DNA of 64,000 nucleotides from an uncultured Alphaproteobacteria bacterium. GTDB taxonomy: Bacteria > Pseudomonadota > Alphaproteobacteria > Sphingomonadales > Sphingomonadaceae. The notes beneath the pieces were generated by a model. It made no database searches and was not told the origin of the DNA. It worked only from the letters and a program-made list of their open reading frames with translations. The position numbers were made by a program, and so were the translations under genes. The stretch is taken from NCBI GenBank assembly GCA_903934325.1, contig CAIZNH010000044.1, positions 1 through 64,000 on the forward strand, read 5' to 3'. Shown in pieces: positions 24,814-42,950 of this stretch. How positions within the stretch are numbered: the first letter of the stretch is position 1; every line of letters starts with the position of its first letter.

Positions 24814-24872
24814 CTGCGCCTCCGGCGGTCATCCGGTCAGCAGGGTTGCCCGCCGGAGGTTGCAAGATGGTG

Positions 24873-26729
24873 TCAGGCCTTGGCGCTGGCAATATAGCGG
24901 CTGACGGTATTCGCCACGACATTCAGCGGCGCGTTGCCGCCCAGCACCACGGCGGTGTTGAACGCCTTGAGATCGTAGGCGCTGCCGAGTTCTGCCTGCG
25001 CGCGCGAACGCTGGCGGACGATTTCGGTATGGCCGATCTTGTAGCCGCAGGCCTGCCCCGGCCAGCTGCAATAGCGATCGACCTCGGAGGCGACTTCCTC
25101 GGCCTTGGAGCCATTGCGTTCGACAAAGAACTGGCGGCCCTGCTCGCGGGTCCAACGCTTGGAGTGGAGGCCGGTGTCCACCACCAAGCGGCAGGCGCGG
25201 AAGGCGAGCGACTGGAGGTAGCCGAGGCGGCCGACCTTGAACTCGTCATAGGCGCCCAGCTCGTCCGCCAGCTGTTCTGCATAGAGTGCCCAGCCTTCGG
25301 AGAAGGCGTTGAAAGCGAGGATCGAGCGGATCAGCGGCAGGCGGTTGGAGAATTCGCCCTCCCACACGTGGCCGGGAATGCTCTCGTGGAAGGTAAGGTC
25401 GGCTAGGTCATACTTGCGGTGCAGATCGGTGGTGCGCAGGTTGATCCAGAAGCGCCCCGGAATGCTGCCGTCCTTGCTGCCCGCCCCGCCATAGGCCCCC
25501 GGCGCGCCGGGTTCTTCGGCGAGCGGGAGGCGGCGCACTTCGAGCGGGGGATCGACCAGCTTGTTGAAGGCGCGCGGCATCTGCGCCTTGATCCAGCCGA
25601 GCCGCTCGTTGATGAAGGCGAAGATTTCCGCGCGGCCCGCGTCTCCTTCCGCAAAGTGGTATCGCGGGTCCTGCGAAAGCGCCTGCATCCGCTCGCCGAC
25701 GCTGCCCTTGGTGTAGCCGATTTCCTTGAGGATCGGGTCCATCCGGCCGTGGATTTCTTCGAGTTCGGCCAGACCCTGACGGTGGATCTCGTCAGGGGTG
25801 AGGCGCGTGGTGGTCGAGGCGCCGACGGCCCAGGCGTAATATTCCTCGCCCATCGGCTGGGCCCACATGCCGGCATTGTCCTTGGCCGCCGCGCGTTGGA
25901 CCTTGAGTTCGGCGATCTGGCGTTCGAGCGCGGGGACGATGCCACTGGCGACGATCCGGTCGGCCTGCTCGGCAGCCTTCGCCGCGCCATCCAGCTTCGC
26001 GGCCGCGAGTGGGCCGGCGTAGCTTTCCGATGCGCCTGCAATGCTCGTTTCCATCTGGCGGATCGCCTTGTCGAGCAGGAAAGCGGGGGGAATAACGCCC
26101 ATCCCGCGCGCCGACCGGATGCGCTCAAGCTCCCCGTCAAGCAGCGCGGGCACCTCGGTCAGACGCGACATGTAGGGGCCGACATCCGAGGCCGCGAACA
26201 GCGGCTGGCTCGACCCGAAGAAGCGCGGCATGTCGAGATAGCCGCCGACGTTCTGGATCACCACATAGGGCGCGTTGCGCCAGCTGCCGACCGCGACATC
26301 GCCATAGGGCATGGCCATGCCCTCCACAGCGCGGGTGAAGGCGGTCTCGACCACCTCGAAGCCGATTTCCTGATCGTCGGTGAGGCCCCCACGATCCTTG
26401 GCGCGCGGGAAGGCGCGGGCTTCGGCTACCAGTTCCTTGAGTGTTGCGGCATAGGCGCTGCGCCCTTCCTCGCCGCCGACCCCGAAGGTCGATCGCCACG
26501 CGGCATATTCGCCGGTGTCGACCCCTAGCCCGGTTGCCCGGCCCGGCTCGTGTGCGAGCATCTTGTAGGCGATGCGATCCAGCGTCGCATCCGCGCCGCC
26601 CGGAGCAGCGGGGGTGCTGATCGGCGCGGCATCACTGCGGGCGCAGGCGGGCAGCAGGGCAAGGGCGGAAACACCGGCAAGCCCGGAAAGGGCCTGGCGG
26701 CGGGTGAAATCATGGTTGCTCTCTCTCAT
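24873..26729 (-). CDS. DUF885 metallopeptidase-like Tat lipoprotein
   Basis: 618 residues. The N-terminus has a twin-arginine signal (FTRRQALSGLAGVSALALLP) ending in an ACA-like lipobox cysteine at about 29, so it should be exported folded and possibly lipid-anchored. The DUF885 core shows FHESIPGHVWEGEF (about residue 445, an HExxxGH zinc-type motif) and FSEGWALYAEQL (about 485, a likely third ligand Glu). These are the features of the carboxypeptidase-like M32/M3-related fold. Substrate unknown. Single gene, minus strand. Confidence 0.87.
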   Translation of the reverse strand: MRESNHDFTRRQALSGLAGVSALALLPACARSDAAPISTPAAPGGADATLDRIAYKMLAHEPGRATGLGVDTGEYAAWRSTFGVGGEEGRSAYAATLKELVAEARAFPRAKDRGGLTDDQEIGFEVVETAFTRAVEGMAMPYGDVAVGSWRNAPYVVIQNVGGYLDMPRFFGSSQPLFAASDVGPYMSRLTEVPALLDGELERIRSARGMGVIPPAFLLDKAIRQMETSIAGASESYAGPLAAAKLDGAAKAAEQADRIVASGIVPALERQIAELKVQRAAAKDNAGMWAQPMGEEYYAWAVGASTTTRLTPDEIHRQGLAELEEIHGRMDPILKEIGYTKGSVGERMQALSQDPRYHFAEGDAGRAEIFAFINERLGWIKAQMPRAFNKLVDPPLEVRRLPLAEEPGAPGAYGGAGSKDGSIPGRFWINLRTTDLHRKYDLADLTFHESIPGHVWEGEFSNRLPLIRSILAFNAFSEGWALYAEQLADELGAYDEFKVGRLGYLQSLAFRACRLVVDTGLHSKRWTREQGRQFFVERNGSKAEEVASEVDRYCSWPGQACGYKIGHTEIVRQRSRAQAELGSAYDLKAFNTAVVLGGNAPLNVVANTVSRYIASAKA

Positions 26730-26803
26730 GCGGGCGAGGTTTGGCGTTCGCCTGCCTCCAAGTCAATTGCGCGGGGGCGGCCCAAGCGGCTAGGGGCACG
26801 GGC

Positions 26804-27016
26804 ATGACCGATTTCGTGCTCTCGCTCGTGATGCTCGCCGCGCTCGCGCTGGTGGCGGGCGCTTTTGTCCTCTGGCGCCGCACCGGCGAGGCAAAGCAGC
26901 CGCTGCTGATGGTACTGCTGGCGGTGATTGCGGTCGTCAACGTGCTGATCTGGACCGTGCCGAGCTCCACCGGCAAGGCACCGATCGAAGAGATCAAGGC
27001 GGCCGGAGAGGGGTAA
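26804..27016 (+). CDS. Small two-helix membrane protein, unknown
   Basis: 70 residues from the ATG at 26804. Two hydrophobic segments (FVLSLVMLAALALVAGAFVL and LLMVLLAVIAVVNVLIW) are joined by a basic loop WRRTGEAKQ, and a short acidic tail follows (IEEIKAAGEG). No family is recognised. It lies between the divergent DUF885 gene and the convergent TonB-like gene. Codon use looks like that of its neighbours. Confidence 0.65.
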   Translation: MTDFVLSLVMLAALALVAGAFVLWRRTGEAKQPLLMVLLAVIAVVNVLIWTVPSSTGKAPIEEIKAAGEG

Positions 27017-27041
27017 GCCTCCCCGGCGCGCCGTCACCAGA

Positions 27042-27716
27042 TCAATCAGGAATATTCCAGGTGATCGCACCCGAGTAGCTGCCGCTCACCGGGCGGCCAC
27101 TGCTGTCGCGCGCTGCATCGAAGCGGGAGCGCTTGGTCACCAGCTCGCAGGTCGCGGCATCGAGCACGCCGTGTCCCGTCGAACGGGTGATGCTGCACCC
27201 TGTCACCTTCCCTGCCGCATCGATCGTGAGGGTGAAGCGTGCGGAACCCGAAAGGCCCTGCCGCAGCCAGCTCGCGCGGTAATCGCTATCGAGCACCCAG
27301 CGCGCCGGATTGTTGCGCGGGGCCGCGCCAACCGGATCGAAGGGCGAGGCGCTGGGGGAAGGCCCGGGGATGCCGAAATCGACCGGGCCGACCTCGACGC
27401 CCTTCAACTCGTCCACGCCGGGCAAGGTGGTGACAGGAGTGGTGGCGAAATCGAAGGGGATCGTGTCCGGGCGGGTGACGGTGGTGGGGCTCACCGCCTT
27501 GGTGCTGGTGTTGCTGGTCGGCGCCGCGGGATCGGGCGGCGGCGGGGGGATCGGGATCGGCTTGACGGTAAAGCCCTGAAGCGGCGGCGGCTCAGGTGCG
27601 ACGACCACCGTCACGGCAAGGCCCACCACCAGCAAGGCGCCAACGGCAGCGGGAATGCCGAGGGCGCCGACAAGGGCAGCGGGATTGGGACGGCGGGCAT
27701 GGGAGGCATAGGTCAT
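27042..27716 (-). CDS. TonB-like energy transducer
   Basis: 224 residues. One N-terminal membrane helix (about 15-40) is followed by a proline-rich periplasmic stretch (PIPIPPPPPDP and further), then a TonB C-terminal domain (about 140-224) with SGSARFTLTIDAAGKVTGC and a final beta strand. It would transmit proton-motive force from ExbB/ExbD to outer-membrane receptors such as the one at 4601-7768. exbB/exbD are not nearby, so this is probably an accessory TonB. Confidence 0.82.
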   Translation of the reverse strand: MTYASHARRPNPAALVGALGIPAAVGALLVVGLAVTVVVAPEPPPLQGFTVKPIPIPPPPPDPAAPTSNTSTKAVSPTTVTRPDTIPFDFATTPVTTLPGVDELKGVEVGPVDFGIPGPSPSASPFDPVGAAPRNNPARWVLDSDYRASWLRQGLSGSARFTLTIDAAGKVTGCSITRSTGHGVLDAATCELVTKRSRFDAARDSSGRPVSGSYSGAITWNIPD

Positions 27717-38341: not shown

Positions 38342-39724
<1,383 letters not shown>

Positions 39725-40851: not shown

Positions 40852-40931
40852 ACCCTTCCCACAGCGTCGCTCTTCTGTCACTCAGCGCGGCCAGAACACT
40901 CTCACACCCCACCGATTCAGGGAGCCCCTCG

Positions 40932-42089
40932 ATGCGCCTGTCGCTGCTTGCCGCTACCGTTCTTGCCGCCGCCGCCAGCCCCGTGCTGGCCCAGAGCAGC
41001 GATGTGCCCCCGGGCGTCAATCTCACGCCGGATCAACTGCTTGCGCCCTATTATGCCGAGCTGCGCAAGAAGGTTGCGATGCCGGTCGCCGGGCCGACGC
41101 CTGCGCTCAGCCCCGCCACCACGCTGACCCGCATCGCCTTTGGCAGCTGCAACCACCAGAACGCGCCGCAGCACATGTGGGCGCAGATCGCGGCGGCCAA
41201 TCCGCAGCTGTTCCTGATGATCGGCGACAATGTCTACGGCGATACCGGCTGGGATGCCGACGCCGGGCTGGAGAGCCTGCGCAGTTCCTACGCGCTTCAG
41301 GCTTCGCACCCCGAATTCAAGGGCTTCCGCGCGAAATTCCCGATGATGGCGACCTGGGACGACCATGATTTCGGCCTCAATGATGCGGGCGGCAATTTCC
41401 CGATGCGGCGCTGGGCCGAAGAGCTGTTCGAGACCTTCTGGGGGTCCTCCGATGCGGTGCGCAACCGCGACGGGATCTATGAAAGCTCCATCACCGGCCC
41501 CGAGGGCAAGCGCGTGCAGGTGATCCTGCTCGACACCCGCTTCTTCCGCTCTGACCTGAAGAAGGCCCCGTGGTCGAAGGACCGCCCGCCGCTCGGCGGC
41601 TATGTGCCTGATGATGCTACGGAAAAGACCGTGCTCGGCGCAGACCAGTGGGCCTGGCTCAAGGCCGAGCTGGCCAAGCCCGCGGACCTGCGCATCGTGG
41701 TCTCCTCGACCCAGGTCATCACCCAGGCCCACCAGTTCGAGGGCTGGACCAACTTCCCGGCCGAGCGCACCAAGCTGCTCGAAATGCTGGCGGGCCGCGA
41801 GGCGAGCGGGCTGGTCATGCTCTCGGGCGACCGCCACGCTGCGGGTATCTACAAGACTGAAATAAAAGGCAAAATAATGTGGGAGCTGACCAGCTCCTCG
41901 CTCAATCTCGCCTTCGGCAGCGACATCGAACGCGCCACTTCGCGGGAGCCTGATCCGGCCCGCGTCACACCCTTTTTCCCGATCGAGAATTACGGCCTGA
42001 TCGATATCGACTGGAAGGCGAAGACGCTCACCATGACCCTCAAGGGCAATACCAGCGCCACGCTGGCGGAGCAGGCCTTCAGCTGGTGA
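40932..42089 (+). CDS. PhoD-like alkaline phosphatase/phosphodiesterase, exported
   Basis: 385 residues. A Sec signal (MRLSLLAATVLAAAASPVLA-Q) is followed by the PhoD metallophosphatase core: FGSCNHQN with a metal-ligand Cys, GDNVYGD, TWDDHDFGLNDAGG, LLDTRFFRSDLK and SGDRHAAGIY. These supply the Fe/Ca ligands of the PhoD active site in the periplasm. It lacks the long Tat leader of classic PhoD. No pho-box was identified. The parS pair begins 4 bases after its stop. Confidence 0.92.
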   Translation: MRLSLLAATVLAAAASPVLAQSSDVPPGVNLTPDQLLAPYYAELRKKVAMPVAGPTPALSPATTLTRIAFGSCNHQNAPQHMWAQIAAANPQLFLMIGDNVYGDTGWDADAGLESLRSSYALQASHPEFKGFRAKFPMMATWDDHDFGLNDAGGNFPMRRWAEELFETFWGSSDAVRNRDGIYESSITGPEGKRVQVILLDTRFFRSDLKKAPWSKDRPPLGGYVPDDATEKTVLGADQWAWLKAELAKPADLRIVVSSTQVITQAHQFEGWTNFPAERTKLLEMLAGREASGLVMLSGDRHAAGIYKTEIKGKIMWELTSSSLNLAFGSDIERATSREPDPARVTPFFPIENYGLIDIDWKAKTLTMTLKGNTSATLAEQAFSW

Positions 42090-42093
42090 CACA

Positions 42094-42109
42094 TGTTTCA
42101 CGTGAAACA
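42094..42109. other. parS: parS centromere site, copy 1
   Basis: TGTTTCACGTGAAACA is the exact 16-bp palindromic ParB-binding sequence found in Caulobacter and most bacteria. It lies in the gap between the PhoD-like gene and the SDR gene, outside any coding sequence. ParB loads here and spreads along neighbouring DNA to guide segregation. Confidence 0.95.
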
Positions 42110-42131
42110 GCAAAAACACCCGTTCTTGCAA

Positions 42132-42147
42132 TGTTTCACGTGAAACA
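42132..42147. other. parS: parS centromere site, copy 2
   Basis: Second exact TGTTTCACGTGAAACA, starting 38 bp after the first copy with 22 bp of AT-rich sequence between them. Two perfect copies in one short intergenic gap make chance occurrence very unlikely. Confidence 0.95.
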
Positions 42148-42188
42148 TTTTTGGCCCTGTTGGAATGGCGCAAAAAATCCTCTGCAAA

Positions 42189-42950
42189 TCAGAGGGTAAA
42201 GCCGCCGTCCGAGACGAGCACGTGGCCCGTAATGTTGGAATTGGCGTCCGAGAGCAGGAAGCAAATGCTCTCCGCCATCTCCTCAGGCGAGGCAAAGCGG
42301 CCCGAAGGCGTGGTCTTGGCCATGGCCTTCAGCGTCGCCTCGCGCCCGATCCGTTCGACCGATGCGAGGAAGTCCGGGCCGCTTTCCCAGATCGCGGTGT
42401 CGACCCCGCCCGGCGCAATCGCGTTGACGCGGATGCCGGCCTTCGCGTTCTCGGCGGCTGCGATGCGCGCCATGTGGGCGACTGCCGCCTTGGAGACGCC
42501 GTAAGGCCCGATCCCCGGCAGCGGCTTCAATCCGGTGGTCGATGACACCACGACCACGCTGCCGCTCTTGCCCGCCATGGCCCGCAGCGATGTCGCCAAA
42601 GTCATGAAGGCCCCGTCGAGATTGACGTCCATGACGCGGCGCCATTCGGCAAGGCTAAGGCTCGCCAAGGGACCCCCTGCGCCGATCCCGGCATTGACCA
42701 CGGCATGGTCAAGCCCGGTCAGGCGCGGCTCTAGCGCCTGCCATAGCGCCTCGTCCGCGACGCTGCCGACGATGCGGTGCACCTCCACGCCGGGAAAATC
42801 GAGCGCGTCGAGCCCCGGCCCGTCCACATCGACGAGGAACAGCTTGGCCGCTCCGCGCTCCGCCAGCATGGTCGCACAGGCCGCACCGATCCCCGATGCT
42901 GCCCCGGTGACGAGCGCACAGCGCCCTTTGAAATCCTGAAGTGTTGTCAT
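42189..42950 (-). CDS. Short-chain dehydrogenase/reductase
   Basis: 253 residues from the ATG at 42950 (MTTLQDFKGR). Classical SDR signatures: cofactor loop VTGAASGIGAACA, Asp in FLVDVDG suggesting NAD(H) preference, VNAGIG, catalytic Ser in VVVSSTTGLK and Tyr/Lys in YGVSKAAVAH. Substrate unknown. The gene is downstream of the NtrC-like regulator (46 bp) on the same strand and directly abuts the parS pair, so ParB spreading could cover it. Confidence 0.92.
   Translation of the reverse strand: MTTLQDFKGRCALVTGAASGIGAACATMLAERGAAKLFLVDVDGPGLDALDFPGVEVHRIVGSVADEALWQALEPRLTGLDHAVVNAGIGAGGPLASLSLAEWRRVMDVNLDGAFMTLATSLRAMAGKSGSVVVVSSTTGLKPLPGIGPYGVSKAAVAHMARIAAAENAKAGIRVNAIAPGGVDTAIWESGPDFLASVERIGREATLKAMAKTTPSGRFASPEEMAESICFLLSDANSNITGHVLVSDGGFTL

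Follow-up and report, generated by a model that had tools for sequence, protein, structure and literature searches.

Dispersed parS sites in an Erythrobacter clade and a possible chromosome-wide role for its ParB

Bacterial parS sites are described as lying almost exclusively near the replication origin, ectopic copies being tolerated in permissive zones only (PMC5815017, PMC7022226). The window considered in this work, a stretch of 64,000 nucleotides from an alphaproteobacterial assembly, carries two such sites side by side. Does this pair mark the vicinity of the origin, as was originally predicted, or does it belong to another arrangement of the partition system?

The parS pair and its chromosomal position

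The expected pair is indeed present (Table 1). Both copies are exact TGTTTCACGTGAAACA, real parS sequences, 38 bp apart start to start and separated by a gap of 22 bp. Their placement between a PhoD-like gene and an SDR gene is borne out as well: the two genes converge and the pair occupies the 99-bp 3′-to-3′ gap between them, the first copy following the end of the PhoD-like gene after 4 bp. The copy at 42094 is devoid of the AA/TT flanks usual for these sites. A chance origin can be dismissed, with 0.06 matches expected in the window and two reached in no shuffle; the reversed-pattern control gave no exact match. No third parS match with up to three mismatches was found in the 64 kb. The hairpin listed for the SDR gene comes from a scan that covered 501 bp, for which about 0.6 such hits are expected by chance. 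In the same neighbourhood, a DNA methylase that has a RAMA domain and a layout resembling that of CcrM (positions 38582-39724) lies 2.4 kb upstream of the pair and is followed by a pterin-binding (folP-like) gene.

Table 1. The parS pair and neighbouring features (window coordinates)
Feature	Position	Strand	Remarks
parS copy, clade-conserved	42132-42147	.	exact TGTTTCACGTGAAACA; extended palindrome AATGTTTCACGTGAAACATT at 42130-42149
Second exact parS copy	42094-42109	.	TGTTTCACGTGAAACA; seen in G000 alone
PhoD-like phosphatase gene, left neighbour	40926-42089	+	PF09423, E 8.9e-25; start codon approximate
SDR-family dehydrogenase gene, right neighbour	42189-42950	-	PF13561, E 5.4e-48; oriented towards parS
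Intrinsic-terminator-like hairpin of SDR gene	42179-42195	-	between SDR gene and parS pair

The window's own assembly (G000; 2.83 Mb in 44 contigs) contains 35 exact parS copies and five one-mismatch copies, spread across many contigs. It has a single ParB-family gene, on contig 24 (C24), where five exact copies are found at positions 24831-27451, in and around trmE, mnmG, rsmG and parA and adjoining parB. By position and synteny, we take the first three genes of this cluster to be trmE, mnmG and rsmG; the naming of parA and parB is not of this kind.

The chromosomal position of the window site was taken from two complete relatives, each a single contig, and not from the contig order of G000. 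G003 (3.09 Mb) has 52 exact TT-type parS, or 46 places when its parAB cluster is merged, and G022 has 52 exact CC-type parS (TGTTCCACGTGGAACA); in both, they are spread over the chromosome. The GC skew of G003 switches near 2.65 Mb and near parB (about 0.96 Mb), parB being located at the GC-skew origin. The orthologue of the window's site is at position 2,048,950 in G003 and at position 1,444,285 in G022, about 1.09 Mb and 1.02-1.04 Mb from the origin, respectively, or some two-thirds of the arm as judged by GC skew. Hence, the idea that the pair marks the surroundings of the origin has to be abandoned: over 1 Mb separates the orthologous site from the parB-linked origin in both relatives, and the whole-genome scan for the 16-mer proposed with that idea found copies scattered round the genome, the very distribution that had been set against it.

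Around the terminus the two relatives differ. In G003, the 300 kb on either side of the GC-skew terminus, an interval picked post hoc, hold two exact copies where 8.9 would be expected, a depletion of the kind that nucleoid occlusion would predict, and 7 of its 11 one-mismatch variants lie in the terminus region. In G022 no such gap is seen (7 sites versus 9.3 expected). A universal exclusion of parS from the terminus, present in one genome and absent from the other, was therefore rejected. The G003 variants (C1:2403266-2855156), often CACATG, cluster where exact copies are scarce, and a gradation of site strength is possible.

Doublets with a spacing of 37-40 bp start to start recur across places and species, and not all of them are orthologous. 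They occur in G000 (C24:24831/24870, and 42094/42132 of the window), in G003 (952667/952707/952744), in G022 (420578/420616), in G441 (C3 365/402; L293) and in G270 (C1:117714/117752). A preferred spacing may possibly be at work.

Conservation, gene context and distribution of the sites

The places occupied by parS are largely common to these species. Among comparable sites of G000, 25 of 29 have a counterpart on the same gene side in G003 and 22 of 25 have one in G022; where the gene side is empty in G000, a site is nevertheless present in 10 of 426 cases in G003 (2.3%) and in 5 of 323 in G022 (1.5%). In the 18 intergenic pairs shared by G000 and G003, all 16 bases are 100% conserved and the ungapped flanks are 31% identical, the ungapped flank identity around conserved sites being about 31-37%. 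In the 15 intergenic pairs shared by G000 and G022, 14 positions are 100% identical, and positions 5 and 12 are altered in 15 of 15. All the orthologous intergenic sites tested in G022 have switched from TGTTTCACGTGAAACA to TGTTCCACGTGGAACA. This switch would most simply be placed in the lineage of G022, because G022 is closer to G000 (90% protein identity) than G003 is (85%). Dispersal, conserved position and conserved bases, like the clade-wide changes in ParB considered below, can be read directly in the genomes.

SDR orthologues were found in 44 of the 61 genomes of the genus, and the locus of the 42132 copy could be followed in 30 species. Lying some 45 bp beyond the SDR stop codon, the site is exact in 17 of them and reads TGTTCCACGTGGAACA in G022; G031, G055 and G029 have decayed relics. 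The site is missing in the other nine, namely all five low-copy species tested and four species of the dispersed clade. The 42094 copy has no counterpart at this locus in the 29 other species. Thus, the suggestion of one strong loading point agrees with the two copies of this genome but does not extend beyond it, since relatives have a single copy here.

Gene calls around the sites were made with a simple codon-usage caller, three genomes being pooled. Intergenic sites amount to 103 of 134, where about 8% of the sequence is intergenic. Convergent gaps hold 57 of these 103 (about 18% expected), and divergent gaps only eight (about 33% expected). Such a context would fit an architectural site, unlike a promoter operator. 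The convergent placement and the shunning of divergent, promoter-bearing gaps also seem to argue against silencing of the flanking genes, which had been part of the original prediction.

Alphaproteobacterial genomes typically have about two parS (389 genomes sampled). The 60 further genomes of the genus fall into two groups by their count of TGTTYCACGTGRAACA: roughly one half has 1-5 copies, apart from one incomplete genome with none, and the other 7-68. E. oryzae and Erythrobacter sp. MSM4 have 14 copies each, Porphyrobacter sp. LE19-388.1B has 19 and the Alphaproteobacteria MAG HGW-7 has 32, with 1-4 in Qipengyuania and Novosphingobium. By ParB, the named relatives are Erythrobacter and Porphyrobacter. 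On a tree built from ParA and ParB, the dispersed species form one clade of 26 of the 56 species (SH-like support 0.77), and a single change between the low-copy and dispersed states accounts for the distribution, versus at least 12 with shuffled labels. Loss of parS in the relatives with low exact counts was considered and discarded, Y/R variants being found at parAB instead.

High counts are also met elsewhere. G393, an alphaproteobacterium of 0.9 Mb (L287, L289, L290), has 154 copies of TGTTYCACGTGRAACA; those seen are TGTTCCACGTGGAACA within a longer palindrome, caaacataaaTGTTCCACGTGGAACAtttatgtttg, and differ from the Erythrobacter sites. G441, an alphaproteobacterium of 5.5 Mb (L293, L295), has 52 parS, and those seen adjoin a second inverted motif, GRTCAACCTTGYTGACC, so as to look like part of a composite repeat.

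ParB as the candidate reader

Very probably, the protein that reads the parS sites of the window is ParB. It keeps the ParB_N, HTH_ParB and ParB_C domains as well as the GERRWRA and ENLQR motifs. The near-fixed differences between the ParBs of low-copy and dispersed species are concentrated in the helix-turn-helix (HTH), where they affect 7 of 29 residues versus 17 of 293 elsewhere (P 0.003). Within the dispersed clade, I176, V178, K182, M194, M195, M198 and T199 are either fixed or frequent; outside it they are rare. According to the alignment used to match the numbering, residues 194 and 199 correspond to Caulobacter 179 and 184, which belong to the four residues setting ParB versus Noc specificity (PMC7383237). 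The other two specificity positions, equivalent to R173 and G201, retain the parS state (R188 and G216). The residue at position 180 is not by itself what sets the preference for T, because it is M in Caulobacter too and Q in two species of the clade.

The ParB of G022 alone carries I176T, D179E, V191I and M195H in the HTH. These four unique changes compare with four summed over the 25 other members of the clade, a modest excess (P 0.02). In addition, R219K places a lysine at the equivalent of the parS-contacting R204, where the others shown have an arginine. Since these substitutions accompany a wholesale change of the sites, ParB would be the most likely reader of the whole set. The genomes directly show a single wholesale T-to-C switch of the sites along with a corresponding change in the ParB reading head; as an association between protein and sites, this is a correlation on a single branch and not a proof. 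Together, these observations suggest that the sites are bound by ParB in vivo.

MipZ is a ParB-bound inhibitor of FtsZ. MipZ and SMC are present in 61 of 61 genomes of the genus, dispersed or not, and gain or loss of either one as the cause of dispersal was rejected, both being found in every genome of either state. With the ParB domains intact and MipZ and SMC in every genome, the known partners are thus all available. MipZ, ParA and SMC would appear indistinguishable as partners at the sequence level, MipZ and SMC being equally present in the non-dispersed species. In G000, mipZ (C22:1330-2085) is 4.4 kb from a dispersed parS at C22:6487.

Possible roles of the dispersed sites

It may be proposed that the window pair is one of about 33 parS-bearing places in G000, all of them sites for the single chromosomal ParB. 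In one Erythrobacter clade, the ParB-parS system would not be restricted to the origin cluster any more. The HTH of ParB would have been altered on the stem of this clade, and 10-60 sites would be held by selection round the whole chromosome, with a preference for convergent 3′-to-3′ gaps, where bound or sliding ParB would least disturb transcription. That a single chromosomal ParB reads selected, dispersed sites is, in our view, probable. The origin cluster, trmE-mnmG-rsmG-parAB, would retain its ordinary centromere role, and the dispersed complexes would give ParB a Noc-like, chromosome-wide role. The simplest route would be recruitment of MipZ over the nucleoid, division being held back until the bulk DNA has been cleared; this MipZ step is tentative and may well prove wrong. 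By analogy, dispersal appears to need a compensating change, because in Caulobacter and Pseudomonas additional parS at a distance from the origin does harm or is disfavoured (PMC5815017). Taken as a whole, the picture of a polycentric ParABS, in which the sole chromosomal ParB at 10-60 selected sites acts as Noc without a Noc gene and in which one lineage has rewritten two bases in each of about 50 sites along with the ParB reading head in a natural switch of whole-set specificity, seems to us evenly balanced between right and wrong.

Its closest competitor also has the sites read by ParB but would use them for bulk segregation or folding, through polycentric ParA pulling or many SMC loading points, instead of division. 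The retention in ParB of the N-terminal CTP domain, the HTH and the dimerisation domain, together with the retention of ParA and SMC, is in line with this reading, as are the continuity of sites through the terminus of G022 and the case of archaeal SegB, which organises DNA via scattered sites (PMC12284271). However, SMC loaded at numerous scattered points would presumably upset the alignment of the arms, and ectopic parS are discouraged both near ter, in P. aeruginosa and B. subtilis, and outside a permissive zone, in Caulobacter (PMC5815017). Bulk segregation is a serious possibility, even if not the outcome that we would expect. Most likely, the main ParB has taken on a task across the chromosome, be it of one kind or of the other. 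We regard a Noc-like role as roughly on a par with ParA pulling at many sites or SMC loading, precedent tipping the balance slightly its way.

Explanations that dispense with dispersed ParB action fare less well. The palindromes might be operators or bidirectional terminators of another protein or of RNA polymerase, resembling parS by descent only. They do lie at the 3′ ends of genes, and their RNA could fold into a hairpin (-5.9 to -8.3 kcal/mol). A promoter operator is nonetheless weakened by the avoidance of divergent gaps, and a terminator by the lack of a T run, as typically only two T follow the palindrome, and by the use of the same sequence at every place, where a terminator needs no identical stem. 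Besides, the SDR gene has its own terminator-like hairpin and the HTH of ParB co-varies with the site set, so that we consider this reading improbable. Spread by a mobile or repeated element carrying parS is more improbable still: it would recall the longer-repeat-like surroundings of parS in two unrelated genomes (G393 and G441), but within the dispersed clade flanks beyond about 20 bp differ between sites, there is no longer repeated unit, and positions are orthologous in species at about 85% protein identity. For that clade, a mobile repeat was rejected on account of the unrelated flanks and the orthologous positions. As for an ordinary origin-proximal cluster placing the window near oriC, it could invoke the canonical parS sequence and the true cluster at parAB; set against 35 copies over many contigs, 52 in the complete relatives and an orthologous site more than 1 Mb off, it is almost certainly wrong.

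The polycentric arrangement proposed here can be compared with known systems. With chromosomal ParABS of Caulobacter and B. subtilis, it shares the 16-bp site, the domain layout of ParB, a local cluster of sites, and parA-parB beside mnmG-rsmG at the GC-skew origin. However, these systems have their parS almost exclusively near ori (PMC5815017, PMC7022226), whereas the Erythrobacter clade keeps 30-60 exact sites chromosome-wide in its best-populated species. The Noc/NBS systems of B. subtilis and S. aureus likewise associate a ParB-family protein with a scattered 16-bp palindrome (PMC4331003). There, the protein, Noc, is a paralogue distinct from ParB and recognises a site of its own (R173Q, G201R), whereas in the Erythrobacter clade the main ParB, with the equivalents of R173 and G201 retained, uses parS itself. 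The Noc specificity residues (Q173, K179, K184, R201) and NBS are absent, R188 and G216 being ParB-like and positions 194/199 being M/T, and neither G000 nor G003 yielded a further ParB-family gene. In SegAB of Sulfolobales, too, a partition-site protein has scattered sites in addition to a cluster close to the genes of the system (PMC12284271), but the archaeal protein is unrelated and its sites are mostly intragenic, in contrast to the Erythrobacter sites, mostly in convergent gaps. ParB of P. aeruginosa likewise makes genome-wide contacts outside the origin, at half-parS sites (PMC7022226); these are of 7 bp, with hundreds occupied, whereas the Erythrobacter sites are full, selected palindromes of 16-20 bp. 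The ParABS of the clade departs from ordinary ParABS in not being confined to the origin, lacks the Noc sequence features as well, and would work somewhere between the two. In the literature searched, we came across no description of dispersed parS for Erythrobacter or sphingomonads.

A natural clade with dozens of dispersed parS breaks the rule of origin-confined bacterial centromeres, and makes the action of a partition protein away from the origin testable, be it in division control, in bulk segregation or in SMC loading. The switch in G022 offers a naturally occurring case of a DNA-binding protein and some 50 of its sites shifting specificity together, with relatives on either side for comparison. 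Finally, the clade may reveal a way for ParB itself to acquire a Noc-like role without duplication of its gene.
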